This document shows, piece by piece, positions 13,547 to 54,990 of a stretch of DNA of 54,990 nucleotides; position 1 is the stretch's first letter, and every line of letters begins with the position of its first letter. The notes below the pieces were generated by a model that made no database searches, was not told where the DNA came from, and worked only from the letters and a program-made list of their open reading frames with translations. The position numbers were made by a program, and so were the translations under genes. The DNA lies in assembly GCF_900167095.1 (NCBI RefSeq), contig NZ_FUXG01000021.1, forward strand, positions 1 through 54,990. The letters are read 5' to 3'. This DNA comes from Oceanospirillum multiglobuliferum. Its GTDB lineage: Bacteria > Pseudomonadota > Gammaproteobacteria > Pseudomonadales > Halomonadaceae.

Positions 13547-13558
13547 ATTGTTGGCTGG

Positions 13559-14566
13559 TTATAACGCTTCAGCCAATAGTTGATAGCTTTGCAGTCGATC
13601 TTGAAAGCTGTGTGTAACTGTGACCAGGCCAATTTCATCGCACTGGTAGGCTTTTGTCAGTTGGTTGATTTCATCCCAGCATTGCGTTGCAGTACCAACG
13701 GTAAAGCCGTTAAGAATATGGTCATACTGTGATTGGTAAGAGTGTGATAGTGCGTTATAGCGATCCTGCACTTGCTCGGGGGTTAAAAAGGGTTCCCTAA
13801 GCCCCATTTGTGCAGCCAGCTTTCGGTAAACTGCGGTTCCTGCTATTAGACGAGCTTCTTCATTTGTTTCTGCACAGATACAGGCAATCGCCAGCATTTT
13901 ATTGGGTGTACCTGCATGTTTTGCTTTTTGCCATTCATTTAGGTGTGCTTTGAAAATATCTGGACTACAGTTGTCTGGGTCAATAAAACGCGCAAGGGCA
14001 ATATGGTAGCCCAAGTGCCCTGCAAGTCCTGCACTACCGCCACTAGAACCTAACATCCACATTTCAGGTTTGGGGTCATTATCTGGCAAAACCTTCAAAC
14101 TATGGAAGGCATTGTCTTTAGGCATAGAGCCATCAATAAAGTGTTTAAGATCTTGGGCTTGTGTGGCGTATAACTCACCATTATGCGGTCTTGAGAAATA
14201 AGACAGTGCTTGAGAGGTCAGCTGCGTACCACCGGGTGCGCGACCGATACCTAAGTCTATTCGATCTGGAAACAGTGTCGCCAGCATCTTAAAACACTCA
14301 GCAACTTTGTAGGGGCTATAGTGGTTGAGCATTACTCCGCCGCTGCCGACACGAATGTTTTTGGTGATACTGGCAATATGTGCAATCAATATTTCTGGGC
14401 AAGGATTGGCAAAGTGAATGCTATCGTGGTGTTCCGCAACCCAGTAGCGATAATAGCCTAGCTGGTCACAGGCTTGTGCAAGTGTGGCAGATAAACTAGG
14501 GGACTCTTTTGCAGGGTGAGAGCCATATACAGGGGATTGGTCTACAACCGATAACTTAATACTCAC
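13559..14566 (-). CDS. Luciferase-like flavin monooxygenase (MsnO8/YhbW type)
   Basis: 335 aa. The sequence shows the bacterial luciferase-like TIM-barrel pattern: LSVVDQSPV at the N-terminus, YYRYWVAEHHD (~40-50), IRVGSGGVMLNHYSP (~72-86), DLGIGRAPGG (~105) and MLGSSGGSAGLAGHLG (~170). These are hallmarks of the MsnO8 family of FMN-dependent oxidoreductases, whose substrates are mostly unknown. The start is a GTG with AAGGA seven bases before it. It lies 139 bases from fpr on the same strand; a functional link to that flavin reductase is possible but unproven. Confidence 0.9.
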   Translation of the reverse strand: MSIKLSVVDQSPVYGSHPAKESPSLSATLAQACDQLGYYRYWVAEHHDSIHFANPCPEILIAHIASITKNIRVGSGGVMLNHYSPYKVAECFKMLATLFPDRIDLGIGRAPGGTQLTSQALSYFSRPHNGELYATQAQDLKHFIDGSMPKDNAFHSLKVLPDNDPKPEMWMLGSSGGSAGLAGHLGYHIALARFIDPDNCSPDIFKAHLNEWQKAKHAGTPNKMLAIACICAETNEEARLIAGTAVYRKLAAQMGLREPFLTPEQVQDRYNALSHSYQSQYDHILNGFTVGTATQCWDEINQLTKAYQCDEIGLVTVTHSFQDRLQSYQLLAEAL

Positions 14567-23277: not shown

Positions 23278-24318
23278 TTATGACTTTAAAACAGCAATGC
23301 CTTGTTTATAACCTAAGCCACCGTTGCCATGCACAATACCCAGCTGATTATCGCCTGCTTGCAAACTGAGACACATTGAAATTAAGCCATTTAAGGCGGG
23401 ATTGTTCCAAGCACCTCGACCTAAGTTCATCCCACCTGTTTGAGTAACAGGCTTGGTGGATAGCAATGCTAATAAAGCAGCTTTGTCTGTTGCCGCTCCT
23501 GACTTTACCAGTAACGCAAGCGGTACAACAGGGTAGCAGGTATAGGCGTCTAGTTTGACATTGGGAGCCGCAATAGCGGTAGCCATCTCGATACCTGATT
23601 GCACTTCTGCATAGTGCAGCGCCTTTTCTAGCGCGTGATAGGTTGCCAAGTTTTTAACCTGTTCTGGGCCATCTGCATCAGCAAGTCCTATACCTATGCC
23701 TTGTATTCTGATGGGCTTAATTGCGGGGCTGAGTTGCGGCAATGTTGCAGGGGTACAGAGCACAAGACAACCTTCGAAATCGACTAATGGATTTGCGCAA
23801 TCGACACCACGGAATAGCTCTGTGAGCAGTGAATACCAGCGCTGGTCTGGTAGTGGTAAATCAAGTTCTGCTGCGGTTCTGGAGAGGTTGTTAAATAGCG
23901 CATCGCGCAGCTCAATAAAGTCATCAAGGCTCAAGTTGTGCAGCTGGCAAAACTGTTTGGCAAGGGCGGTATAGCCTTCTGGCAAGCTGCCTGCGTCACC
24001 ATATACATTCATCAATTGATGACGGTCGGCTTTACTGTATTCAGAGCGTAAGTAATCACGCCCATGAATGACCACAATATCGGCATCAGACTCGTTGAGC
24101 AGGCGATTGGCCACGGCTAAAGCTTCTATAGGCGCACAACCACTGCGATAGTGGTTATCTTGTACTGGACTGTTCCAGTCGGTGCGCAGCGGGTCAATTT
24201 CTAATGTTCTAATGCGCAGATTAAGCTGTGCAGCTTGAGCCAGTATTTGCTCAGAGGCACTGAGGTCGCCCTGCTGGTCTAATATTCGATCAGCGGCAAT
24301 AATGCAGTTTTGTGTCAT
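23278..24318 (-). CDS. Thiolase-superfamily protein, short and lacking the GHPxG motif
   Basis: 346 aa, shorter than classical thiolases (about 390). RSGCAPIEALAVANRLLNE (~61-79) aligns by eye with the nucleophile-cysteine helix of thiolases, followed by DADIVVIHGRD. The C-terminus has GGMNLGRGAWNNPALNG and ends in VHGNGGLGYKQGIAVL. The catalytic GHPxG histidine motif and the second cysteine (CxG) are replaced. This resembles SCP-x-like 'acetyl-CoA acetyltransferase' relatives in which activity is uncertain. It follows the DUF2889 gene by 52 bases on the same strand, so the two may share a transcript. It could be a thiolase for a branched or aromatic beta-ketoacyl-CoA or a non-catalytic partner. 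Confidence 0.75.
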   Translation of the reverse strand: MTQNCIIAADRILDQQGDLSASEQILAQAAQLNLRIRTLEIDPLRTDWNSPVQDNHYRSGCAPIEALAVANRLLNESDADIVVIHGRDYLRSEYSKADRHQLMNVYGDAGSLPEGYTALAKQFCQLHNLSLDDFIELRDALFNNLSRTAAELDLPLPDQRWYSLLTELFRGVDCANPLVDFEGCLVLCTPATLPQLSPAIKPIRIQGIGIGLADADGPEQVKNLATYHALEKALHYAEVQSGIEMATAIAAPNVKLDAYTCYPVVPLALLVKSGAATDKAALLALLSTKPVTQTGGMNLGRGAWNNPALNGLISMCLSLQAGDNQLGIVHGNGGLGYKQGIAVLKS

Positions 24319-24370: not shown

Positions 24371-24925
24371 TTATGACTTAGACTCAGTAGTTGCAAAATC
24401 AGGCCATAACCTCTTTGCCACAGAGGAGTGCTCTGCCAACGAGTGACAAGTGTTCATAATGGCAGGCTTGCTACCACTGGCTTCTTCTTTTTTCTTCAGT
24501 TCTGAGTACAGCGCCTGATATGCCGTCGTCGCCATAGGCCCTAGTAGCTCTGTATGATGGGTGCAGCCGTATTGATTACCAAGGCGTGCTTTGATCTCCT
24601 TATTCCATCCTGCGCCAATTTTTAAACCAATCAGTTTTTTATAAGCAGGGGTGATATCAGCACAGATATTAAAAGGTGCATAGTCTGTGCAGGCTTCTGC
24701 ATCATGGATCAATAGATCCACATCAATACTGATTCTTAGCCACATCTCATGTACAGGCTCGCCTGCGGCAATTACACCACCACGATCTTCGTTGTCTATA
24801 GCTTTGGTTTTGATGTCGGTCATATGGCCTTCAATATCCCAAAGGCCATCGTTACGGGCGTAGGCACGGCAAGTTACTGTGCGAGTGTGTACTAACTGCC
24901 GTGTTTGGCCATCTGATAAAGGCAT
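24371..24925 (-). CDS. DUF2889 domain protein
   Basis: About 184 aa. The pattern RTVTCRAYARNDGLWDIEGHMTD near the N-terminus, HEMWLRISIDVDLLIHDAEACTD in the middle and GCTHHTELLGPMATTAYQAL toward the C-terminus fit DUF2889, a family without known biochemical function that I associate with CoA-dependent aromatic or lipid catabolic loci. The conserved Cys and His residues could bind a metal or be catalytic. The ATG at 24925 is used; an upstream TTG is less likely. It precedes the thiolase-like gene by 52 bases. A terminator separates it from the reductase gene upstream. Confidence 0.78.
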   Translation of the reverse strand: MPLSDGQTRQLVHTRTVTCRAYARNDGLWDIEGHMTDIKTKAIDNEDRGGVIAAGEPVHEMWLRISIDVDLLIHDAEACTDYAPFNICADITPAYKKLIGLKIGAGWNKEIKARLGNQYGCTHHTELLGPMATTAYQALYSELKKKEEASGSKPAIMNTCHSLAEHSSVAKRLWPDFATTESKS

Positions 24926-24990
24926 AATCAATTACCGAAACAAATTAAGGTCATGTATTAGGTTGAGTATATTGTTATGGATGAGCCGAT

Positions 24991-25048: not shown

Positions 25049-26338
25049 TTATCCTAAAACGGCAAGCATTTCAGCGATTGAAGTGAACTTTTCCCTTGGT
25101 TTTCCCTCAGGCGCACGGTCAACCTCTGCTTGGCTGATTCTCTGCCAGTCCTCGTTGTTCACCACACGTATGTTGCGCTCATTTAGCAGTTGATCCATTG
25201 CGTGGCTGCCTGCTTTATGTTCAACAATAGGTGTTGCTTCTAAGTCAGCAATAATGCGCTTGGCCACATCCATTGAGTCTGCACGGTTTGCAGGAATCAC
25301 ACCGTTAGGGCCACGTTTGCACCATCCTGAGGTATAGACACCTGACTCAACAAAGCCGTTGTCATTGGCAACAATACCGCGCTGTTCATCAAACGGCATA
25401 CCGGGAATGGCTTTGCTGCGGTAGCCAATGGCAGAAAATAGGGTGTCAACGGGTAGATTAACGCTTTCGCCAGCACTGTTTTCAAGTATCAAATTGCTGA
25501 TGCGACCATTGTTTCCTGTAATGGCCTTTGGGCTATGCCAAAATAAAAAGTGCAAACGTACTGGTTTTTGCTCAGGGGTATTGGCCGCATACTCCTGTAG
25601 AATCTCTAGGTTGCGTTGGCGCGCTTTGGCATCGCGAGGGTCATAACCTTCGCCCACTTCTGCTGGTACTTCAATGTTCTGTACCAGTGGTACACAGCGT
25701 GTCATCTCTGCAAATTCGCCCAGTTCTGGCGGGGTAAAGCTGGCCTCAATTGGGCCACGACGACCAATCAGGTAAATATCTTCAACGGTAGATGCTGCAA
25801 TGGCATCTTGGGCGTGCTGGCTGATATCTGAGCCGACCATCTCTTCTGGTGTTTTAGCCAAAATACGGGCGATGTCCAAAGATACGTTACCGTTGCCGAT
25901 AATGGCGATAGATTTGCCATCTAGCTTCGGGTTGAGATCACGGTGATCAGGATGGCCGTTATACCATGCCACAAAACGACCTGAGCCATAAACGGCATCA
26001 AGGTCGCTGCCTTCGATGCCCAGCTCTCGATCTTCTAGCGCGCCAATGGTGATGATTACAATGTCGTAAATAGACTTAAGCTCGTCATAACTGACATCGC
26101 GGCCAATCTCAACGTTACCCAGAAAACGCACATTGTCTTTTTGCAACGTGCGTTCAAACTGGCGGGAGATATTCTTAGTGCCAATGTGGTCAGGGGCAAC
26201 GCCTGCGCGTACCAAGCCAAACATGCTAGGTAGTCGATCAATCAGATCCACTTGGCTGTTTTCAATCTTTTTGGATAACAGATCTGCAAGGTAGAACCCA
26301 GATGGGCCGCTGCCAACGATTGCGATACTGGTTGTCAT
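25049..26338 (-). CDS. Adrenodoxin-reductase-type ferredoxin:NADP+ oxidoreductase (FprA-like)
   Basis: 429 aa. An N-terminal FAD site GSGPSGFYLADLL (~8-20) is followed by MFGLVRAGVAPDH (~40-52), the hallmark of FprA/adrenodoxin reductases. The NADP site is IIGNGNVSLDIARIL (~148-162). GYRS...GMPFDE and the C-terminal SGWCKRGPNGVIPANR region (~330) complete the family pattern. It passes electrons from NADPH to a ferredoxin. No ferredoxin gene is nearby. It lies 26 bases downstream of the PaaX-like gene on the same strand and divergent from the diiron gene, so it is the likely electron source for that oxygenase. Start: second ATG (26338) with GGAG nine bases before; the first ATG touches the ribosome site. 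Confidence 0.92.
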   Translation of the reverse strand: MTTSIAIVGSGPSGFYLADLLSKKIENSQVDLIDRLPSMFGLVRAGVAPDHIGTKNISRQFERTLQKDNVRFLGNVEIGRDVSYDELKSIYDIVIITIGALEDRELGIEGSDLDAVYGSGRFVAWYNGHPDHRDLNPKLDGKSIAIIGNGNVSLDIARILAKTPEEMVGSDISQHAQDAIAASTVEDIYLIGRRGPIEASFTPPELGEFAEMTRCVPLVQNIEVPAEVGEGYDPRDAKARQRNLEILQEYAANTPEQKPVRLHFLFWHSPKAITGNNGRISNLILENSAGESVNLPVDTLFSAIGYRSKAIPGMPFDEQRGIVANDNGFVESGVYTSGWCKRGPNGVIPANRADSMDVAKRIIADLEATPIVEHKAGSHAMDQLLNERNIRVVNNEDWQRISQAEVDRAPEGKPREKFTSIAEMLAVLG

Positions 26339-26364
26339 TTTTATCATCTCCAGCTTAAAAGAAA

Positions 26365-27285
26365 TTAAAGGCCACCGAAGCGCTTGTAGAATGCTGCGGA
26401 CGCATCTGGTAGAGGGCCTTCGGCAGTTTCAAGGCTGCTGGATAGGTGCAATTCGGTTTTTTCTGTGACTAATCGGTAGAGATTGCGACAAAGTAGGCGG
26501 GCTGAGGTGCCTTCCCAGTCGCTGGGCAGTAGCTCTTCCGGTAGTTGTGGGTCGCGTAATAAAACACGACGGTATTCATGGATCAAAAGGGTACGTACTA
26601 AAAAACAATCTTCAGGATCTAGCTGGTCTGCGCTTTTTAGCTCATTCCAAACGGGGCGGAACTTGTTCAAAAACAGCTTATAGCTTTCTGAGAGTTGATC
26701 AAGGTTCCAGCAATCACGTACTAATAAGCGTAAAGGTTTGCCGTTCAGCAAATCTTGCTTATAAGTATCAAAAATGATGGCATCATCCAGTGCGTTTAAA
26801 TCTTTCAATGTGGTTTTTAGCTCAGTCATATCGGCCATTGGGTGAGCTAAAACACCCGGTGCGATATTACCAAAGCCTAGCCAGCCTAACTCTTCTTTTA
26901 CGTTTTTCTTGGTTTCGGCCTCAATTTGATTGGTCAGCACGATACACCAGCGACCATCCCAGTCAGGAATGACTGGGGCATAAACACGTTTGAATGCTTT
27001 TTCAAATCGACGGCGACCTGCGCCCGTTAAGCTGTAATAGCTTCTGCGACCAATTTGTTCTGCGTTTAACCACTCTTCTTTGGCTAAACGAAAAACAGAA
27101 GTGCGCACCAAGCGCTGATTTAAACCTAAAGGTTCCAATAGGTTGATCAAGCTGCCTAGCCAAACTGTACCGCCTCTTGGTGCGATAGCGTCACCATAAA
27201 CTGTAATGATCAGGGAGCCCGCTCGAATGGGGCGCTGTTGGCAAAAGTCATTCACAAGCTGTTGAACGGTACGATTATTTGGCAT
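26365..27285 (-). CDS. PaaX-family transcriptional repressor
   Basis: 306 aa, the usual PaaX length. Conserved stretches are LIITVYGDAIAPRGGTVWLGSLI (~25-47), QRLVRTSVFRLAKEEWL (~57-73), IGRRSYYSLTGAGRRR (~80-95), WDGRWCIVLTN, LGWLGFGNIAPGVLAHP, LLIHEYRRVLLRDPQLPEELLP and a C-terminal FYKRFGGL. PaaX represses phenylacetate genes and is released by phenylacetyl-CoA. The paa ring-opening genes are not here, so this relative probably senses another aryl- or acyl-CoA made by this island. The ATG at 27285 aligns with known PaaX starts; an ATG eight codons earlier is possible. It forms a pair with the reductase gene and is divergent from the diiron gene. Confidence 0.92.
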   Translation of the reverse strand: MPNNRTVQQLVNDFCQQRPIRAGSLIITVYGDAIAPRGGTVWLGSLINLLEPLGLNQRLVRTSVFRLAKEEWLNAEQIGRRSYYSLTGAGRRRFEKAFKRVYAPVIPDWDGRWCIVLTNQIEAETKKNVKEELGWLGFGNIAPGVLAHPMADMTELKTTLKDLNALDDAIIFDTYKQDLLNGKPLRLLVRDCWNLDQLSESYKLFLNKFRPVWNELKSADQLDPEDCFLVRTLLIHEYRRVLLRDPQLPEELLPSDWEGTSARLLCRNLYRLVTEKTELHLSSSLETAEGPLPDASAAFYKRFGGL

Positions 27286-27447
27286 GGCTATGATTTTTTT
27301 GTAACACATAATAAAGAGTATTGAGATGGCTTCGAATTGTACGGTGCGACACTGATACAGGCAAGAGTTAAGCTTCAGTAGGGTGATTTCTATCCCTGTG
27401 AATTATTGGTCACATTTACAAATGATACAAAAAATTAACATCGAGTG

Positions 27448-27620: not shown

Positions 27621-28400
27621 ATGAAAATGTACGACAAAGGCGATGTGCTGCCACCTGAGTATAAAGAGCTACTGGTTAATCTGATGACGTTCCAAGCTGA
27701 TTCAGAATATGCAGGTGCACAACGTGTTGCTGAAAACCATCGCTTTGCTCCTCGCCCTGAAGAAGCTTACCGTCTGTCCAAAAAAGTGATGGAAGAGATG
27801 GGTCATGGCTACTACATCTGGAACCTATTGCGTGATCTAGATGTAGACGTGGATTCACGTCTACATGAGCTGGCTTCTAATCCAGACAATCCAGATCCGA
27901 AGAAAGTGAACGTGATCAACGGTTTCCGTAAAGAAAACTGGTCAACTTTCTTTGAGTGCTGGGAAGATGTTGCCCTGTTCTCTACTGTAGTAACGCCAGC
28001 GGCGGTTGCTTTCCTAGGTCAGTATCGTGAGTGTTCTTACCTACCTTGGGCGAAAGTAAACGTACGTATTCATAAAGAAGAGTATGGCCACCTAGCATTT
28101 GGTGTGTGGGCGTCTAAGCGTTGCATCGAGTTCGGCGGTGAGAAAACTCGCGAATTCATGCAAGAGCGTATTGCTAAGTTTATGCAGATTGGTCTGGGCT
28201 TCTATGGTCGTCCGTCAACAGGTTCAGGCAAATCTGAGATGTTCGACAAGTACTACGAGTACGGCATCAAAGTTAAGAAGCCAGAAGAGCTGCAAGCAGA
28301 GTATCTGGAACTGCTAGAAGACCGTCTGAAAGATATCGGCTTTGTACTGCCACAAGGTGTAGAGCCGAACTATGATATGCGTGTTGGCTATAACTCTTAA
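27621..28400 (+). CDS. PaaA/PaaC-family diiron protein, putative CoA-ester oxygenase
   Basis: 259 aa ferritin-like helical protein of the phenylacetic-acid catabolic (PaaA/PaaC) superfamily. The diiron ligand pattern is visible: E29 in ADSEYAG, E59-x2-H62 in EEMGHGYY, an acidic pair E115/D116 on the third helix, and E154-x2-H157 in KEEYGHLAFG. PaaA uses such a site to epoxidise phenylacetyl-CoA. This protein is about 50 residues shorter and lies without PaaB, C, D or E, so it is not the classical complex. With a PaaX-like repressor and NADPH:ferredoxin reductase divergently encoded, it is a plausible oxygenase for another acid or its CoA ester. The ATG at 27621 has AGAGGA seven bases upstream; the longer TTG frame is rejected. 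Confidence 0.87.
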   Translation: MKMYDKGDVLPPEYKELLVNLMTFQADSEYAGAQRVAENHRFAPRPEEAYRLSKKVMEEMGHGYYIWNLLRDLDVDVDSRLHELASNPDNPDPKKVNVINGFRKENWSTFFECWEDVALFSTVVTPAAVAFLGQYRECSYLPWAKVNVRIHKEEYGHLAFGVWASKRCIEFGGEKTREFMQERIAKFMQIGLGFYGRPSTGSGKSEMFDKYYEYGIKVKKPEELQAEYLELLEDRLKDIGFVLPQGVEPNYDMRVGYNS

Positions 28401-28422: not shown

Positions 28423-28827
28423 ATGATTATTCCATCTCCAGATCAACTGGTCGAACAAGGGGCCAGTGTATTGGCGAAGTTTGGCTACGAGCCTTTTGGT
28501 GGCGAAGAAGAGCACTGGTCGGCGATGTGGGATCTGTTGAAAGGTGATTTTACCACCCAGAAACACCCTGAGATTCCGTCATTTGACGACCTAAGCTTAA
28601 GCTTAAAAGAAGCTGCCAAAGTGTATATGCGCCGTCGTTTGATTGCTGATCGCTTTTTTGAAGAGTGTCGTAAAGCGCAAGCGGACCTGTTCAAAGGCAT
28701 CGATACAGATGGCGTTGAGCGTTACACCATCGCACGAGATGCGTATGAGGATAGCGTTGGCGACTTCGGAGCAGCGCGAGAGCGTATCGCAATGCTGCTG
28801 GATGGTAAGTACTGGGAAGAAGACTAA
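28423..28827 (+). CDS. Unrecognised partner protein of the diiron oxygenase
   Basis: 134 aa, acidic and helical, no signal peptide or membrane segment. It begins 22 bases after the diiron gene with GAGG eight bases before the ATG, so it is co-transcribed, and a terminator follows. Features include WSAMWDLLKGDF (~30-41), a basic YMRRRLIADRFFEECRKA (~70-87) and a Trp-Glu-Glu-Asp C-terminus. I do not recognise the family. Its position suggests a small regulatory or effector subunit of the diiron enzyme, as seen in other multicomponent oxygenases, but nothing in the sequence proves this. Confidence 0.75.
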   Translation: MIIPSPDQLVEQGASVLAKFGYEPFGGEEEHWSAMWDLLKGDFTTQKHPEIPSFDDLSLSLKEAAKVYMRRRLIADRFFEECRKAQADLFKGIDTDGVERYTIARDAYEDSVGDFGAARERIAMLLDGKYWEED

Positions 28828-28865: not shown

Positions 28866-28907
28866 AAAAAGGTGGCTTTGTTTAACAGAGTCACCTTTCG
28901 TTGTTTT
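28866..28907 (+). terminator. Intrinsic terminator after the diiron unit
   Basis: AAAAGGTGGCT and AGTCACCTTT form an imperfect 10-bp stem (with a mismatch) followed by CGTTGTTTTTAG. It separates the two-gene diiron unit from the ABC transporter genes. Confidence 0.75.
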
Positions 28908-29144: not shown

Positions 29145-30296
29145 ATGCTTAAGCGAGTAGCTATCAAAGGTGCTATGGCCCTTGCAGTTTCAGCGGCCCT
29201 AATCAGTGGTGTGCAGGCTGCCGATACGATCAAAATCGGTTCCTTCCTAGCCGTTACCGGCCCAGCCTCTTTCCTTGGCGACCCAGAACTTAAAACCTTG
29301 CAAATGTACGTTGATAAAATCAACGCAGAAGGCGGTTTGCTTGGTAAACAAGTTGAACTTGTTCACTATGACACCGCAGGTAATGCACAAAAAGCCCGTA
29401 CCTTTGTGAAGCGTCTTATCGAATCAGATAATGTTGATCTAATCGTTGGTGGTAGTACTTCTGGTGCGACACTCGCTGTTATTCCATTGGTTGAAAGTGC
29501 AAAAGTACCTTTTATCTCGCTTGCGGGTGCTGTTGCGATTGTTGATCCAGTGAAAAAGTGGGTTTTCAAAACACCACACACAGACCGTATGGCCGCAGAA
29601 AAAATCTTTGAAGATATGAAATCTCGTGGCTTCAAAAAAGTGGCTCTAATTTCAGGTACGGGTGGCTTTGGTCGCTCAGGTCGCGCTCAAGCAACACAAG
29701 TAATTGGCAAATATGGTCTAGAGTTGGTGGCGGATGAGACCTATGGTCCAAAAGACACTGATATGACTGCACAGCTGACTAAAATTAAATCTACAGCAGG
29801 TGTGGATGCGATCCTAAACTTTGGTTTTGGCCAAGGTCCTGCCATTGTGACGAAAAACTATAAACAGCTGGGTATTGATCTGCCGTTGTATCAATCACAC
29901 GGTGTAGCCTCTAAGAAATTCATTGAGCTAGCAGGTAACGCATCTGAAGGTGTACGCTTGCCAGCCGCAGCACTATTACTGGCAGAACAGCTACCGGATA
30001 GCAGTGCGCAAAAACCAGTCGTTGTAAAATACAAAACCGAATACGAGCAGAAGTACAACTCAGAGGTTTCAACCTTTGGTGGGCACGCGTATGACGGTTT
30101 GATGCTGGCTGTGAATGCCATCAAAAAAGCAGGATCAACAGACAAAGAAAAAGTGCGTGCTGCTATCGAATCTACTAAAAACTATGTGGGTACAGGTGGC
30201 GTCGTGAATATGTCTGCAGAAGACCACTTAGGTCTTGATCTGTCTGCGTTCAAAATTTTGGAAATTCGTAACGGCGACTGGACATTAGTTAAGTAA
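29145..30296 (+). CDS. ABC transporter periplasmic substrate-binding protein (Liv type)
   Basis: 383 aa. The signal peptide ends GVQA before ADTIKIGSF (~28). The mature part has TGPASFLGDPELKTLQMYVDKINAEGG, the usual start of the peripla_BP_6 family, and VGGSTSGATLAVIPLVE around residue 100. These proteins bind branched-chain amino acids or, in many soil and marine bacteria, aromatic acids, amides or urea. The preceding diiron/PaaX genes suggest an aromatic or related acid here, which is inferred. The ATG at 29145 follows GGAG by nine bases; a TTG five codons upstream overlaps that site. First gene of a five-gene operon. Confidence 0.93.
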   Translation: MLKRVAIKGAMALAVSAALISGVQAADTIKIGSFLAVTGPASFLGDPELKTLQMYVDKINAEGGLLGKQVELVHYDTAGNAQKARTFVKRLIESDNVDLIVGGSTSGATLAVIPLVESAKVPFISLAGAVAIVDPVKKWVFKTPHTDRMAAEKIFEDMKSRGFKKVALISGTGGFGRSGRAQATQVIGKYGLELVADETYGPKDTDMTAQLTKIKSTAGVDAILNFGFGQGPAIVTKNYKQLGIDLPLYQSHGVASKKFIELAGNASEGVRLPAAALLLAEQLPDSSAQKPVVVKYKTEYEQKYNSEVSTFGGHAYDGLMLAVNAIKKAGSTDKEKVRAAIESTKNYVGTGGVVNMSAEDHLGLDLSAFKILEIRNGDWTLVK

Positions 30297-30330
30297 GCCA
30301 AAGCTCGAAGTTTTCATATCTATAAAAAAG

Positions 30331-30358
30331 AGCAGGGGCGTAACAATACCCCTGCTCG
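30331..30358 (+). other. Stem-loop between binding-protein and permease genes
   Basis: GAGCAGGGG (30331-30339) and CCCCTGCTC (30350-30358) form a perfect 9-bp stem with a 10-nt loop, without a T run. Such hairpins behind binding-protein genes usually protect the upstream mRNA and raise its level over the permease part. Confidence 0.7.
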
Positions 30359-30393: not shown

Positions 30394-31269
30394 ATGTCAG
30401 TAGAATTTCTGCAATACCTGTTTTCTGGCGTCACTATTGGTGCTACCTATGCATTGGTAGGCTTAGGTTTCGCCATTATTTATAACGCCAGCCATGTGAT
30501 TAACTTTGCCCAAGGCGAATTCATCATGATTGGAAGTATGGCTACGGTCAGCTTCTTAGCGATGGGAATGCCGATGCCAGTGGCGATTTTATTAGCCGTC
30601 GCACTCGCTGTAGTAACAGGCATGTTATTACAGAAGTTCGCGGTTGCTCCGGCAAAAAATGCGGATGTGGTCACCATCATTATTATTACAATCGGTGCTT
30701 CCATTTTACTGCGTGGTTTGGCTCAAGTATTTTGGGGTAAATCATTCCATGCGTTGCCAGCGTTCTCTGGTAACGAGCCGATCAATATCGCTGGCGCGAC
30801 TATTGTGCCGCAAAACCTGTGGGTGCTAGGCGTTACCTTGGTAATTGTAGCCGCAGTGTCTTGGTTTTTTACCAAAACCATTATTGGTAAAGCGATTTTA
30901 GCCACCTCTCACAATGCCGATGCCGCTAAGTTAGTGGGTATTAACACCAACATGATCTTGTTGTTTGCCTTTGGCTTGTCGGCTTTGCTGGGTGCCGTGG
31001 CAGGGATCATTGTGGCACCTATTACCACCACCAGTTATGAAGTGGGCATTATGCTGGGTCTAAAAGGCTTTGTAGCAGCAGTGCTTGGTGGTTTAGGCAG
31101 CGGTGTTGGCGCTATTGTGGGTGGTTTGATTTTAGGTATCGCGGAAGCGATGGCCGCAGGTTACATCTCATCAGATTACAAAGATGCCGTACCTTTTGTG
31201 ATTATTCTTTTCATCCTGTTCTTCATGCCGAGCGGTTTGTTTGGTAGCCGCGGAACGGAGCGTGTGTAA
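30394..31269 (+). CDS. Liv-type ABC transporter permease, LivH subunit
   Basis: 291 aa, about eight membrane segments. The N-terminal GATYALVGLGFAIIYNASHVINFAQGEFIMIG in its parts (GATYALVGLGF, IINFAQGE-like segment at ~30-45) is diagnostic of LivH. GLSALLGAVAGIIVAPI and LGGLGSGVGAIVGGLILGIAEA near the C-terminus contain the coupling loop to the ATPases. It forms the inner-membrane channel with the LivM partner whose start codon overlaps this stop by one base. Confidence 0.94.
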   Translation: MSVEFLQYLFSGVTIGATYALVGLGFAIIYNASHVINFAQGEFIMIGSMATVSFLAMGMPMPVAILLAVALAVVTGMLLQKFAVAPAKNADVVTIIIITIGASILLRGLAQVFWGKSFHALPAFSGNEPINIAGATIVPQNLWVLGVTLVIVAAVSWFFTKTIIGKAILATSHNADAAKLVGINTNMILLFAFGLSALLGAVAGIIVAPITTTSYEVGIMLGLKGFVAAVLGGLGSGVGAIVGGLILGIAEAMAAGYISSDYKDAVPFVIILFILFFMPSGLFGSRGTERV

Positions 31270-32219
31270 TGTTTGAAAAACTCAACTCCCCTAGAACTGG
31301 TGGTTTATTAGCGCTGATATTGGCCGTGTTGATTTTACCGCTGTTCTTTCAAAATACCTTCCACTATGACGTTGCCATTCACGTAGCCATTAGTGCAACC
31401 GTAGCGATCAGCTTAAATCTATTGGTGGGTTACGCAGGCCAGATTAGTCTGGGTCATGCGGGCTTTTTTGGTGTGGGTGCTTACTCCAGTGCGATTTTAA
31501 CAGGCTGGGACTTTGGTTGGTCGCCAATTACAGCCATGCTGGTTGCGTCTTTAGCTGTAGGTGTGCTGGCGTTAGTGGTCTCTGGGCCTATTTTACGTCT
31601 TAAAGGCCATTACCTTGCAATGGCGACTTTAGGCTTGGGCATTATTATCGCTATTGTGATCACAACTGAAGATTGGTTAACAGGCGGCCCTGATGGTTTA
31701 TCCGTAGAGCCACTGACCATTTTTGGCCTTTCACCTCAAGGTGAAGCGCAATGGTACTGGGTGTTTTGTGTGGTTTTAATCGCCAGTGTTTGGCTGTCGT
31801 TGAATCTGATCGACTCTCCGGTAGGACGTGCGATGCGTGCTGTGCATGGTTCAGAGGTAGCCGCGCAAGTAGCAGGTGTTGATACCACTTACTTTAAGAC
31901 CTTAATTTTTGTGATGTCAGCCATGTTTGCCTCTTTAATGGGCAGCTTAAGCGCACATTATTCTGGCTTTGTGACCCCCGATATTGCAGGTTTTCACCAC
32001 TCAATCGAATTGATCACCATGGTGGTTTTAGGTGGTATGGCGTCTGTATTTGGTGCCATAACAGGTGCTGTTATCTTGACGCTGCTACCACAAATGCTCA
32101 CTGGATTAGAAGATTGGGAAATGGTGATTTTTGGCTTGATCTTGATGCTGACCATGATTTTTATGCCAAAAGGACTTGTCCCTACTCTACTGACTAAATT
32201 TCGTCGAGGTGAGGCATGA
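31269..32219 (+). CDS. Liv-type ABC transporter permease, LivM subunit
   Basis: 316 aa with about nine membrane segments. LNLLVGYAGQISLGHAGFFGVGAY in its parts (GYAGQISLGHAGF, ~55-67) is the LivM signature. LRLKGHYLAMATLGLG (~112-127) and a C-terminal VVLGGMASVFGAITGAVILTLLP segment fit the family. Translationally coupled at both ends: the start overlaps the LivH stop by one base and the stop overlaps the next start by four (ATGA). Confidence 0.94.
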   Translation: MFEKLNSPRTGGLLALILAVLILPLFFQNTFHYDVAIHVAISATVAISLNLLVGYAGQISLGHAGFFGVGAYSSAILTGWDFGWSPITAMLVASLAVGVLALVVSGPILRLKGHYLAMATLGLGIIIAIVITTEDWLTGGPDGLSVEPLTIFGLSPQGEAQWYWVFCVVLIASVWLSLNLIDSPVGRAMRAVHGSEVAAQVAGVDTTYFKTLIFVMSAMFASLMGSLSAHYSGFVTPDIAGFHHSIELITMVVLGGMASVFGAITGAVILTLLPQMLTGLEDWEMVIFGLILMLTMIFMPKGLVPTLLTKFRRGEA

Positions 32220-32971
32220 GTTTATTAAAAGTATCAGGCCTGACAAAAACCTTTGGTGGCGTACACGCCATTGAAGACCTCTCTTTTGAGATCAAAAAAG
32301 GCACAATCCATTCGGTGATAGGCCCCAATGGGGCGGGTAAAACCACACTATTTAACTTGCTGACAGGGGTCTATACCCCAACTCAAGGTGCGGTAAGTTT
32401 TAACGGTGAAAGTGTATCGGGTAAAAGTCCACACTACTTGGCAAAACGCGGCATGAGCCGCACTTTTCAGAACTTGCAGATCTGTATGAACATGTCGGCA
32501 GTGGAAAACGTGATGGTGGGTCGTCACCTGCACATGAGTCATAACCCTATTGCCGCAATGCTTCGTCTACCCAGTATTACCAAGCAAGACAAAGCCTGTC
32601 GAGAAAAAGCCATTGAATTAATGGAGTTTGTCGGCACAGGTCAGTACATCAAAACCAATGCAGATGCGATGTCTTACGGTGCGCTCAAACGTTTAGAGAT
32701 TGCCCGTGCGTTAGCCGCTGAACCTGAAATCTTATTGCTAGACGAACCTGCCGCAGGTTTGAACGGCACTGAAACGGCAGAGGTGGATGAATTGATTCAG
32801 AAGGTCGCAGACTCGGGTGTCACCGTCATGCTGGTTGAGCACGACATGAAGCTGGTGATGAACATCTCCGATTACTTGTTGGTGTTGGATTACGGTAAAA
32901 AACTGGCGGAGGGTACGCCAGAAGAGATCCGTAACAATCCTGCTGTAATTGCGGCCTATCTTGGTGCTTAA
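32216..32971 (+). CDS. Liv-type ABC transporter ATP-binding protein, LivG subunit
   Basis: 251 aa, normal length. Walker A GPNGAGKTT (~37-45), GMSRTFQNLQI Q-loop (~80), the ABC signature read as SYGALKRLEIARAL (~153-166, a variant of LSGGQ common in LivG), Walker B EILLLDEPAAGLN (~172-184) and the switch histidine in VEHDMKLVM. It hydrolyses ATP to drive the importer. No extra domain is attached, unlike its partner encoded 21 bases downstream. Confidence 0.94.
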   Translation: MSLLKVSGLTKTFGGVHAIEDLSFEIKKGTIHSVIGPNGAGKTTLFNLLTGVYTPTQGAVSFNGESVSGKSPHYLAKRGMSRTFQNLQICMNMSAVENVMVGRHLHMSHNPIAAMLRLPSITKQDKACREKAIELMEFVGTGQYIKTNADAMSYGALKRLEIARALAAEPEILLLDEPAAGLNGTETAEVDELIQKVADSGVTVMLVEHDMKLVMNISDYLLVLDYGKKLAEGTPEEIRNNPAVIAAYLGA

Positions 32972-32992
32972 CCTGACTCGGAGGAAAGTGTT

Positions 32993-34369
32993 GTGACAAC
33001 TGAAACAGTTGAAAACCGCTCGCTGATGAATGGCGCAATCCGAGTCATCATTGCAGAGCACGGGGGTGTCTGGCGGGTGCTGGATATTCTAGAGCAGCTG
33101 CAAACGCAGATGAACCTGCACGATGAAGCACCGGATGAAGTGTTGATTGGCACGATTCTAGATTACCTAGAAAAGTTCTCGCAGCGCATTCACCGTTCAG
33201 GTGAAGACGTTTTGCTCTATAGCCTGTTGGTGCAGCGCCACCCGGATGCCAAAGGCCTGATCGACAAGCAGATTCAAGATCATGTTGTGGGTGCTGATCG
33301 TATCCCTCAATTGAGATTGCTTTTGAATGATTGTGCTCGCCACTACCCGCAAGGCCGAGATGAGCTTAGCAAGCAACTGAGTAAATTCACCTTTGCGCTA
33401 CGTAAACACATCAAGCGTGAAGAGGGTATTGTGGTGCCTCTTGCTCGCCAGCACTTGCTAGACAGTGACTGGGAAGCCATTGTGAATTCAAAGGATCAGA
33501 TGAATGATCCTCTGTTTGGTAGCAATGTTCGCGAAGAGTTTAGCGTATTGCGTAGCCGAATTGTCTCAATGACCCCCACAGGAATGGGCGGGCTAGGTAT
33601 TGCTCACGCACATCTACAGCAGCCTTTTGCCAGTATTGCCAGTGACAACAGCGCCCCGAAAACTCTGTTAGAGATTAAAGATCTCACCAGCCATTACGGG
33701 CGAATTCAAGCACTGCATGGCATCTCGATAGAGATTAAAGAAGGAGAGCTGGTCGCTTTGGTGGGCGCTAATGGAGCAGGTAAGAGTACCTTGCTACGTA
33801 CCATTAGCGGCATTCAGCCTATGAGTGGCGGTAGTATCAACTTCAACGGCCAAGACCTTGCTGTTGTCTCTGCCGACAAGCGCGTTTTTGCGGGTATCTC
33901 ACAAGTGCCTGAAGGTCGGCAAGTGTTTGGGCCTATGAGTGTTGAAGACAACATCCGCCTTGGTGCCTACAGTCGTAAAGACAGTGCGGAGATTGCCGCA
34001 GATATGGAAAAAATGTACGACCTATTCCCTATCCTGCGTCAGAAATGCAAACAGGCTGCGGGTACATTATCAGGTGGCCAACAGCAAATGTTAGCGATGG
34101 CACGCGCCTTAATGGTTCGTCCTAAACTTCTGCTTTTAGATGAACCTAGCATGGGGCTTGCACCACTGTTGATCGAAGAGATTTTCAATGTTGTAAAGCG
34201 CTTGAAAAAAGAGGGCATGACTATTTTCTTAGTGGAGCAAAATGCTGCTCAAGCCCTGTCATTGGCTGACCGTGGCTATGTGCTTGAAACGGGCCATGTT
34301 GTGCTCAGTGGCCCCGGAAAAGTGCTCTTGAATGATGATAAAGTGAAAGCCGCTTATTTAGGGATGTAG
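32993..34369 (+). CDS. Hemerythrin-like domain fused to Liv-type ABC ATPase (LivF)
   Basis: 458 aa, nearly twice the usual LivF length (about 235). Residues ~15-160 form a helical hemerythrin/HHE-like domain with plausible diiron ligands H23, H67-x3-E71, H97 and H139-x3-E143. After a ~55-residue linker, residues ~221-458 are a complete LivF ATPase: Walker A GANGAGKST (~257), LSGGQQQMLAMARAL (~359), Walker B LLLLDEPSMGLAP and VEQNAAQAL. Hemerythrin domains bind O2 or sense O2, NO or iron. The fusion suggests import is tuned by oxygen, which the diiron enzyme encoded upstream would need. Start is GTG with GGAGG eight bases before it. The reading frame is continuous, with no sign of a frameshift or sequencing join. 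Confidence 0.9.
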   Translation: MTTETVENRSLMNGAIRVIIAEHGGVWRVLDILEQLQTQMNLHDEAPDEVLIGTILDYLEKFSQRIHRSGEDVLLYSLLVQRHPDAKGLIDKQIQDHVVGADRIPQLRLLLNDCARHYPQGRDELSKQLSKFTFALRKHIKREEGIVVPLARQHLLDSDWEAIVNSKDQMNDPLFGSNVREEFSVLRSRIVSMTPTGMGGLGIAHAHLQQPFASIASDNSAPKTLLEIKDLTSHYGRIQALHGISIEIKEGELVALVGANGAGKSTLLRTISGIQPMSGGSINFNGQDLAVVSADKRVFAGISQVPEGRQVFGPMSVEDNIRLGAYSRKDSAEIAADMEKMYDLFPILRQKCKQAAGTLSGGQQQMLAMARALMVRPKLLLLDEPSMGLAPLLIEEIFNVVKRLKKEGMTIFLVEQNAAQALSLADRGYVLETGHVVLSGPGKVLLNDDKVKAAYLGM

Positions 34370-34442: not shown

Positions 34443-34468
34443 AGCCCTGCTTCGGTAGGGCTTTTTTT
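34443..34468 (+). terminator. Intrinsic terminator of the ABC transporter operon
   Basis: AGCCCT (34443-34448) and AGGGCT (34457-34462) form a stem around a TTCG-containing loop, followed by a T run. It lies about 75 bases after the last transporter gene. Confidence 0.92.
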
Positions 34469-54689: not shown

Positions 54690-54990
54690 TTCTGAGTGCA
54701 ACACCTAATCCAATATCGGGTAAGGTGTTGTTATGACATACAAAGAACTCAACATAGAAGAGCGTGCCACTATTCAAATTGGCCTGCTTCACAATCTCAG
54801 TCTGCGAAGTATTGCTCGCCTACTTGATCGAAGCCCCTCAACAATCAGTCGAGAGATTCGTCGTAACCAGCTTGCCGATGGCCTATACGAAGCACCTAAG
54901 GCTCAAGCCAACCGTCAGGCTCGAAGAGTAGGCTGTCGACCAGTGAAAAAGCTTGCTCAGGGTAATGAACTGTTTGACCTCGTGATTTTG
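54690..54990 (+). mobile_element. IS30-family insertion sequence, left end (continues beyond window)
   Basis: The element starts at or near the antitoxin break (TCTGAGTGCAACACCT, ~54691-54706) and encodes an IS30-type transposase N-terminus. CAACACCT (54699-54706) and AGGTGTTG (54723-54730) form a perfect 8-bp inverted repeat just before the transposase ATG. The right end and target duplication are outside the window, so the exact left boundary is uncertain by a few bases. Confidence 0.85.
54733..54990 (+). CDS. IS30 family transposase, N-terminal part (partial)
   Basis: 86 codons are open to the window edge. The protein starts MTYKELNIEERATIQIGL, with a helix-turn-helix (SLRSIARLLDRSPSTISREIRR, in parts at ~23-45) typical of IS30 transposases. 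APKAQANRQARR follows. The DDE catalytic domain would lie beyond the window. The ATG lies two bases after an inverted repeat and close to the left terminal repeat, as usual for this family. Confidence 0.93.
   Translation, partial: MTYKELNIEERATIQIGLLHNLSLRSIARLLDRSPSTISREIRRNQLADGLYEAPKAQANRQARRVGCRPVKKLAQGNELFDLVIL

Follow-up and report, generated by a model that had tools for sequence, protein, structure and literature searches.

The window, that is, the whole 54,990-nucleotide stretch of Oceanospirillum multiglobuliferum DNA analysed here, bears a genuine gene fusion in which a hemerythrin-like (HHE) domain and a LivF-type ABC ATPase are encoded in one frame. The fusion gene closes an importer gene cluster of the branched-chain type, and relatives of this cluster are commonly found with phenylacetate (paa) genes. 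This association supports an O2-linked reading, in which a redox- or O2-responsive HHE module would tie phenylacetate-type import, via the LivF ATPase, to O2-dependent catabolism; we hold the chances of this reading to be about even.

The fusion gene lies at 32993–34369 on the forward strand, as are all features of this paragraph, and encodes 458 aa from a GTG start. The open reading frame and Pfam analyses reproduce the frame, coordinates and two-domain composition given in the earlier note. An RBS-like GGAGGA (32980–32985) is located 7 bases before the GTG, and a terminator-like hairpin with a T run (34443–34468; consensus match only) is located 3' of the gene. The Hemerythrin domain (Pfam PF01814; 33038–33445; aa 16–151) scores 44 bits against a curated cut-off of 25.3 (E 3.8e-11), and its helices extend to about aa 193. 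A linker (33578–33661; aa 196–223) leads to the ATPase domain (33662–34366; aa 224–458), in which ABC_tran matches aa 241–386 (E 3.7e-32) and LivF is the best NCBIfam match (aa 223–457; 280 bits, under the cut-off of 441). Walker A (GANGAGKST), the Q-loop (SQVPEGRQ), LSGGQQQ and Walker B (LLLLDEP) are all present, and the LivF half is thus intact, as had been claimed.

The hemerythrin fold that had been proposed for the N-terminal part agrees with the PF01814 match and with the results of structure prediction. The AlphaFold2 model of aa 1–210, made with nine relatives, is all-helical (pLDDT 82.6, pTM 0.81). Foldseek places 3cax and then both chains of 2p0n as the top three PDB matches of this model (probability 1.00 each; TM-scores by target 0.32 for 3cax, and 0.73 and 0.75 for the 2p0n chains) and YtfE eighth (probability 0.51); the E-values are 0.01 or weaker (0.01–0.1 for the top matches) and are weak by themselves. 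3cax and 2p0n are labelled merely as uncharacterised in the Foldseek listing, and we take them, as well as YtfE, to be hemerythrin-type proteins. From its all-helical fold and these matches to 3cax and 2p0n, with their weak E-values, the model is classed as an up-down four-helix bundle. The hemerythrin-type fold is a frequent oxygen sensor. In sequence searches of the PDB, the window HHE domain alone gave nothing above noise, and a 10-row HHE profile gave 2p0n as the fourth match (E 0.0019), with FBXL5 (0.061) among the weak matches. The first three matches of the profile search were designed helical-repeat proteins, in which one short repeated stretch was matched, and these were discounted as evidence. 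In the full-length model, two well-predicted domains are joined by a segment of low confidence (pLDDT under 50 at aa 204–220) and the pTM is 0.52, so that the relative placement of HHE and LivF is not fixed by the model.

The window has all the components of a LivFGHM-type importer in one cluster. On the forward strand, a PaaA-like diiron oxygenase candidate (27621–28400; TIGR02156 68.7 bits, cut-off 280) is followed by p134 (28423–28827; no Pfam or NCBIfam family), a periplasmic binding protein (PBP) gene (29145–30296; Pfam Peripla_BP_6), the permease genes livH (30394–31269) and livM (31269–32219), the ATPase gene livG (32216–32971; livHMG by Pfam and NCBIfam) and the fused HHE-livF gene. 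The start of the PaaA-like gene at 27621 was set by comparison with the L149 locus, and 27618 was used in the family searches. Divergently, the reverse strand has the repressor gene paaX (26365–27309; TIGR02277 323 bits, cut-off 264.55), which is the sole PaaX match in this genome, and an FAD/NAD(P)H reductase gene (25049–26347), which adjoins paaX also in L074, L149, L173 and L174. The identical nine genes are present in the identical order in genome G161 (L149). The paaA, paaC and paaE genes of the window genome are located on another contig. The PDB relatives closest to the PBP, 3sg0 and 4dqd, are named just extracellular ligand-binding receptors.

The operon that had been placed behind a diiron oxygenase gene stands in part: a PaaA-like gene is present at that place, also in the distant L149, but a 317-base gap containing a terminator-like hairpin (28868–28898, forward strand; consensus match only) separates the PaaA-like gene and p134 from the transporter genes. 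As this hairpin between p134 and the PBP gene has a T-rich tail, the PaaA-like gene may be transcribed apart; terminator-like hairpins in the window number 14 versus 9.0 (sd 3.2) in shuffles, which is little above chance.

Several side observations concern these neighbours. p134 follows the PaaA-like gene in two distant genomes (in L149 at 13556–13936, with the orthologue in the same order) and perhaps encodes a partner subunit. Besides true PaaA and PaaC, the window genome encodes two PaaA-like proteins (27621–28400 and G000:C20:56810–57523), and G161 and G284 also encode two each, below the PaaA cut-off. A GC-rich hairpin with a T run is located on the minus strand between the PBP gene and livH (30330–30357). 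A DUF2889 gene (24371–24931, reverse strand) also adjoins paaX in Allopseudospirillum (L137), and a 346-aa protein that matches nothing in Pfam or NCBIfam (23278–24318) is encoded beside the DUF2889, reductase and paaX genes in Oceanospirillum (L074, L173, L174).

The phenylacetate link recurs in the fused loci of other genomes. When genes at 68 fused loci were labelled by phmmer against proteins encoded in the window, in L087 and in L137, a complete PBP/livH/livM/livG set was found in 64 loci, paaX in 56 and any paa gene in 59, supporting the link between the fused importer and O2-dependent aromatic catabolism that had been drawn from the window. The nine loci without paa genes are seven from Ectothiorhodospiraceae, L084 and the short contig L140. 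Near the operon, PaaZ, PaaK, PaaN, PaaY, PaaA, PaaC and PaaE score above their NCBIfam cut-offs in L087 or L137. Among the LivFs of 150 genomes, the five nearest that lack HHE are encoded in the same operon and all adjoin paaK- or paaN-like genes, the weakest neighbour being a paaK-like match in L250 (212 bits). As the unfused importer is also found beside paa-like genes, HHE seems to be an addition to a phenylacetate-linked importer. The label phenylacetate-linked suits this importer better than that of a generic LivF system, and the gene context of the importer suggests that its substrate is probably phenylacetate or a close aromatic acid.

The fused frame is present in seven of 78 related genomes including the window genome. 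Among 274 genomes of the class, G161, G284 and G278 were further bearers. Among 398 genomes of the phylum, the fusion was found in the window genome, G067, G470 and G505, and two other long frames (G665:C33, 371 aa; G445:C76, 401 aa) also came up. A 418-aa open frame in G075 was rejected because it does not encode a LivF fusion. When named genomes were scanned with the N-terminal domain of the fused proteins, 75 loci were obtained, comprising 68 fused loci (L074–L140, L146) and seven separate HHE genes. The bearers include Oceanospirillum, Marinospirillum, Nitrincola, Allopseudospirillum, Mangrovitalea, many Marinobacter, a Vreelandella, Ectothiorhodospira and Halorhodospira (Ectothiorhodospiraceae), and a few metagenome bins, and the alphaproteobacterium Azospirillum lipoferum 4B (L179) also has a fused protein. 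The occurrence in other genomes asked for in the earlier note was thus found, and because unbroken fused orthologues recur across many independent assemblies, assembly error is excluded; that the fusion is a product of chance or of assembly has a negligible probability.

The best LivF tree and the best HHE tree each require three changes of fusion state, none of 200 bootstrap trees manages with only one, and no fewer than two are required by the HHE branches with good support. These counts speak for several fusions or for losses, yet AU tests, with p 0.228 for LivF (0.188 when Azospirillum is omitted) and 0.267 for HHE, do not reject one fused clade. L074, a long branch, was omitted from the second LivF tree.

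The full set of candidate diiron ligands is present in the window protein, in the pattern H23-H67xxxE71-H97xxxA101-H139xxxE143, and its conservation among fused proteins is uneven. Of 72 fused proteins, all have H23, H139 and E143, but 17 retain E71 and six retain His97, with Tyr97 in the other 66. Position 67 is His in 64, Gln in seven and Arg in one, and position 72 is acidic in all 72 (Ser in the later-added A. lipoferum L179). All six ligands are found in six of 73 fused proteins (the window, L149, L150, L046, L140 and L179), in which rows L046 and L140 are the same genome's protein twice. A protein with a frame-broken LivF half (L097) was counted for HHE ligands and left out of the 26 lineages defined at <85% identity, in which H23, H139 and E143 are each kept in 26, H67 in 22, E71 in six and H97 in five. 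A complete conserved diiron site was therefore rejected for the family and is kept for the window; as E71 and H97 are poorly kept, the six-ligand site applies to the window and to a few remote fused lineages but does not extend to the Marinobacter-type majority. Ligand variation among orthologues, which the earlier note had set as a refuting condition, is thus half borne out. All of the 12 standalone HHE proteins compared have the full six-ligand set, and Tyr97 proteins form one branch of the tree (support 93/95, just below the starred level). For these reasons, the window protein retains what looks like the older ligand set, with the set of the majority changed. As a side observation, in Tyr97 proteins T71 mostly pairs with H101 and E/D71 with D101, as if ligands were swapped, and these pairings are clumped by phylogeny.

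Gln67 is found in all seven Ectothiorhodospiraceae genomes, and a search of the same seven found no PaaA match. In the 16 other genomes searched, PaaA is over the cut-off in 13 and below it in G161, G284 and G742, with G284 and G742 giving identical match places. The coincidence of Gln67 with the lack of a PaaA match fits site loss where the O2-using pathway is absent, and counts as one event because it concerns one clade. L103 has Arg67 although its genome has PaaA.

Within Oceanospirillum, the locus is found in pruned forms. In G002 and G003, the PBP gene is located beside paaX with no permease genes at the locus (L173, 9213–10364; L174, 8753–9985). In O. sanctuarii (G005, L074), HHE-LivF alone is left and the PBP and livHMG genes are absent from the locus; the Q-loop Gln, LSGGQ, the D-loop and VEQN are missing from the LivF half of this protein. 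Identity to the window protein is 67% in HHE and 49% in LivF, whereas each of the remaining 71 of the 72 proteins compared is closer to the window protein in LivF than in HHE. The dN between the window and L074 is 0.276 for HHE and 0.460 for LivF; dN alone is compared because dS is saturated in this pair. In O. sanctuarii, HHE either serves some purpose other than transport or is seen at an intermediate stage of decay of the gene.

HHE is also associated with aromatic import as a separate gene. In a 3-hydroxybenzoate cluster of A. oryzae, livF is followed after 17 bases by an HHE gene, and in Azospirillum sp. B510 a single gene separates an HHE gene from a divergent Liv-type importer. A ring-hydroxylating oxygenase gene (Ring_hydroxyl_A 65.8 bits) lies on the opposite strand some 5 kb from the A. 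lipoferum fusion. Benzoate clusters, mainly of Rhodocyclales, are described in one study as containing an HHE gene of unclear role with an ABC transporter (PMC6449761). Of six stretches round standalone HHE genes of the nearest type, one (L254) has livF within 2 kb, and no livF was found near the HHE gene in the other five; two Variovorax standalone HHE genes likewise have no livF near and are neighboured by stress genes. A C-terminal GLG motif was rejected as a mark of importer-linked HHE as unlinked HHE proteins share it.

In the proposed mechanism, the fusion would be one of the two ATPase subunits of the importer, with HHE added as a regulatory module. The candidate non-heme iron site (H23/H67/E71/H97/H139/E143 in the window) would bind O2 or change its redox state, this change would be relayed via the short linker to the ATPase, and ATP hydrolysis, and hence import, would be favoured when O2 is present for the PaaABCE epoxidase and the PaaA-like protein. 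Substrate, iron binding, the O2 or redox signal and the existence and direction of gating are inferred, whereas the fusion and its conservation, the paa context, the hemerythrin-family match with a fitting fold and the intact LivF motifs are observed. Besides the paa genes and the family match with its fold, the O2-linked reading is supported by the recurrence of importer-linked HHE near other O2-using aromatic genes, the Gln67 change in Ectothiorhodospiraceae, H23, H139 and E143 in all 26 lineages and the better-kept HHE half in O. sanctuarii. Counting against it are the variable E71 and H97, Arg67 in L103, the lower conservation of HHE than LivF in nearly all comparisons, the importers that exist without HHE, the standalone HHE genes without livF near and the lack of a domain contact fixed by the model.

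The altered ligands bear on several readings of the HHE domain. We consider it rather unlikely, if worth stating, that the importer is O2-gated with the Marinobacter-type majority using a Tyr site (H23, H67, D/E72, Y97, H/D101, H139 and E143) outside mycobacteria; the Tyr ligand of mycobacterial hemerythrin-like proteins is said to be unique to mycobacteria (PMC8913304). The metal site might instead have been lost in most lineages, leaving HHE as a structural or interaction module (e.g., with PaaX or an enzyme) and the window copy as a relic. This would explain why E71 and H97 are so seldom kept and H67 is lost in eight of 72 proteins, but the invariant H23, H139 and E143, the acidic position 72 and a position 97 that is always Tyr where it is not His point to an altered yet constrained site, and the window copy has the full ligand set; such a loss is unlikely. 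It is more doubtful still that HHE senses NO or nitrosative or redox stress, not O2, and halts import in denitrification or stress. A mycobacterial hemerythrin-like protein with a Tyr iron ligand reacts with NO (PMC8913304), and Tyr occupies position 97 in 66 of the 72 fused proteins, its match to the mycobacterial Tyr position being putative, but the gene context seen is one of oxygenases and paa genes.

HHE might also act as an O2 or iron buffer or scavenger, tethered to the importer near the site of demand without gating the ATPase. Protection or an oxygen store or scavenger has been proposed for the HHE of benzoate clusters (PMC6449761). The O. sanctuarii protein, in which HHE is kept with a degraded ATPase, also fits a function that is not routed through ATP hydrolysis. 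A store, however, needs many copies, and importer ATPases are not usually abundant; in addition, coupling is hinted at by the linker length, which is 21 residues in 58 of the 73 fused proteins, though 28 in the window. We judge this buffering role improbable, and the gated importer with an O2- or redox-responsive HHE module is the reading that we prefer.

Known systems resemble the fusion in parts. P1B-5 ATPases are transport ATPases with a hemerythrin-like domain, the role of which (O2/redox or iron sensing) is left open (PMC9388753); unlike the subunit of an ABC importer with an N-terminal domain and the motif H-HxxxE-H-HxxxE found here, they are P-type transition-metal transporters with a C-terminal domain and the motif H-HxxxE-HxE-HxxxxD. 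Hemerythrin sensors also have a hemerythrin domain fused to an output domain, and activity or output follows the redox state in two systems (PMC9388753); they differ in having the canonical H-HxxxE-HxxxH-HxxxxD and signalling outputs, whereas the fusion has another ligand set and a transport ATPase. The COG3945 HHE gene of benzoate (box/ben) clusters is found with a putative benzoate ABC transporter, and in the BenR case in one operon with it (PMC6449761), but it is a separate gene in a benzoate context, in contrast to the LivF-fused domain in a phenylacetate context, and the two are likened by context, not homology. LivFGHM-type aromatic-acid importers have the same PBP, two permeases and two ATPases, but their LivF lacks the extra domain and is only about half as long. 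Mka HLP, a mycobacterial hemerythrin-like protein, has a Tyr ligand to which Tyr97 of most fused domains, in a predicted metal site, is a putative equivalent, but it is described as a standalone NO peroxidase (PMC8913304).

Among the open-licence full-text matches listed, which were available in part, no report of this fusion was found; a domain-architecture figure in PMC4919030 may include it. A known sensor domain and a known importer type thus seem to be joined in a combination that is new, with a predicted ligand set that is unusual in most members. If gating by HHE is true, it would place post-translational control of nutrient import inside the transporter motor, with a diatomic gas as the effector, and would explain in physical terms why HHE genes of unclear role accompany benzoate importers. 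A reconstituted LivFGHM would then be a ready system for the role of hemerythrin domains on transport ATPases. At the end of the window, the start of a transposase-like frame (54733–54990; family judged by eye) is cut by the contig end.
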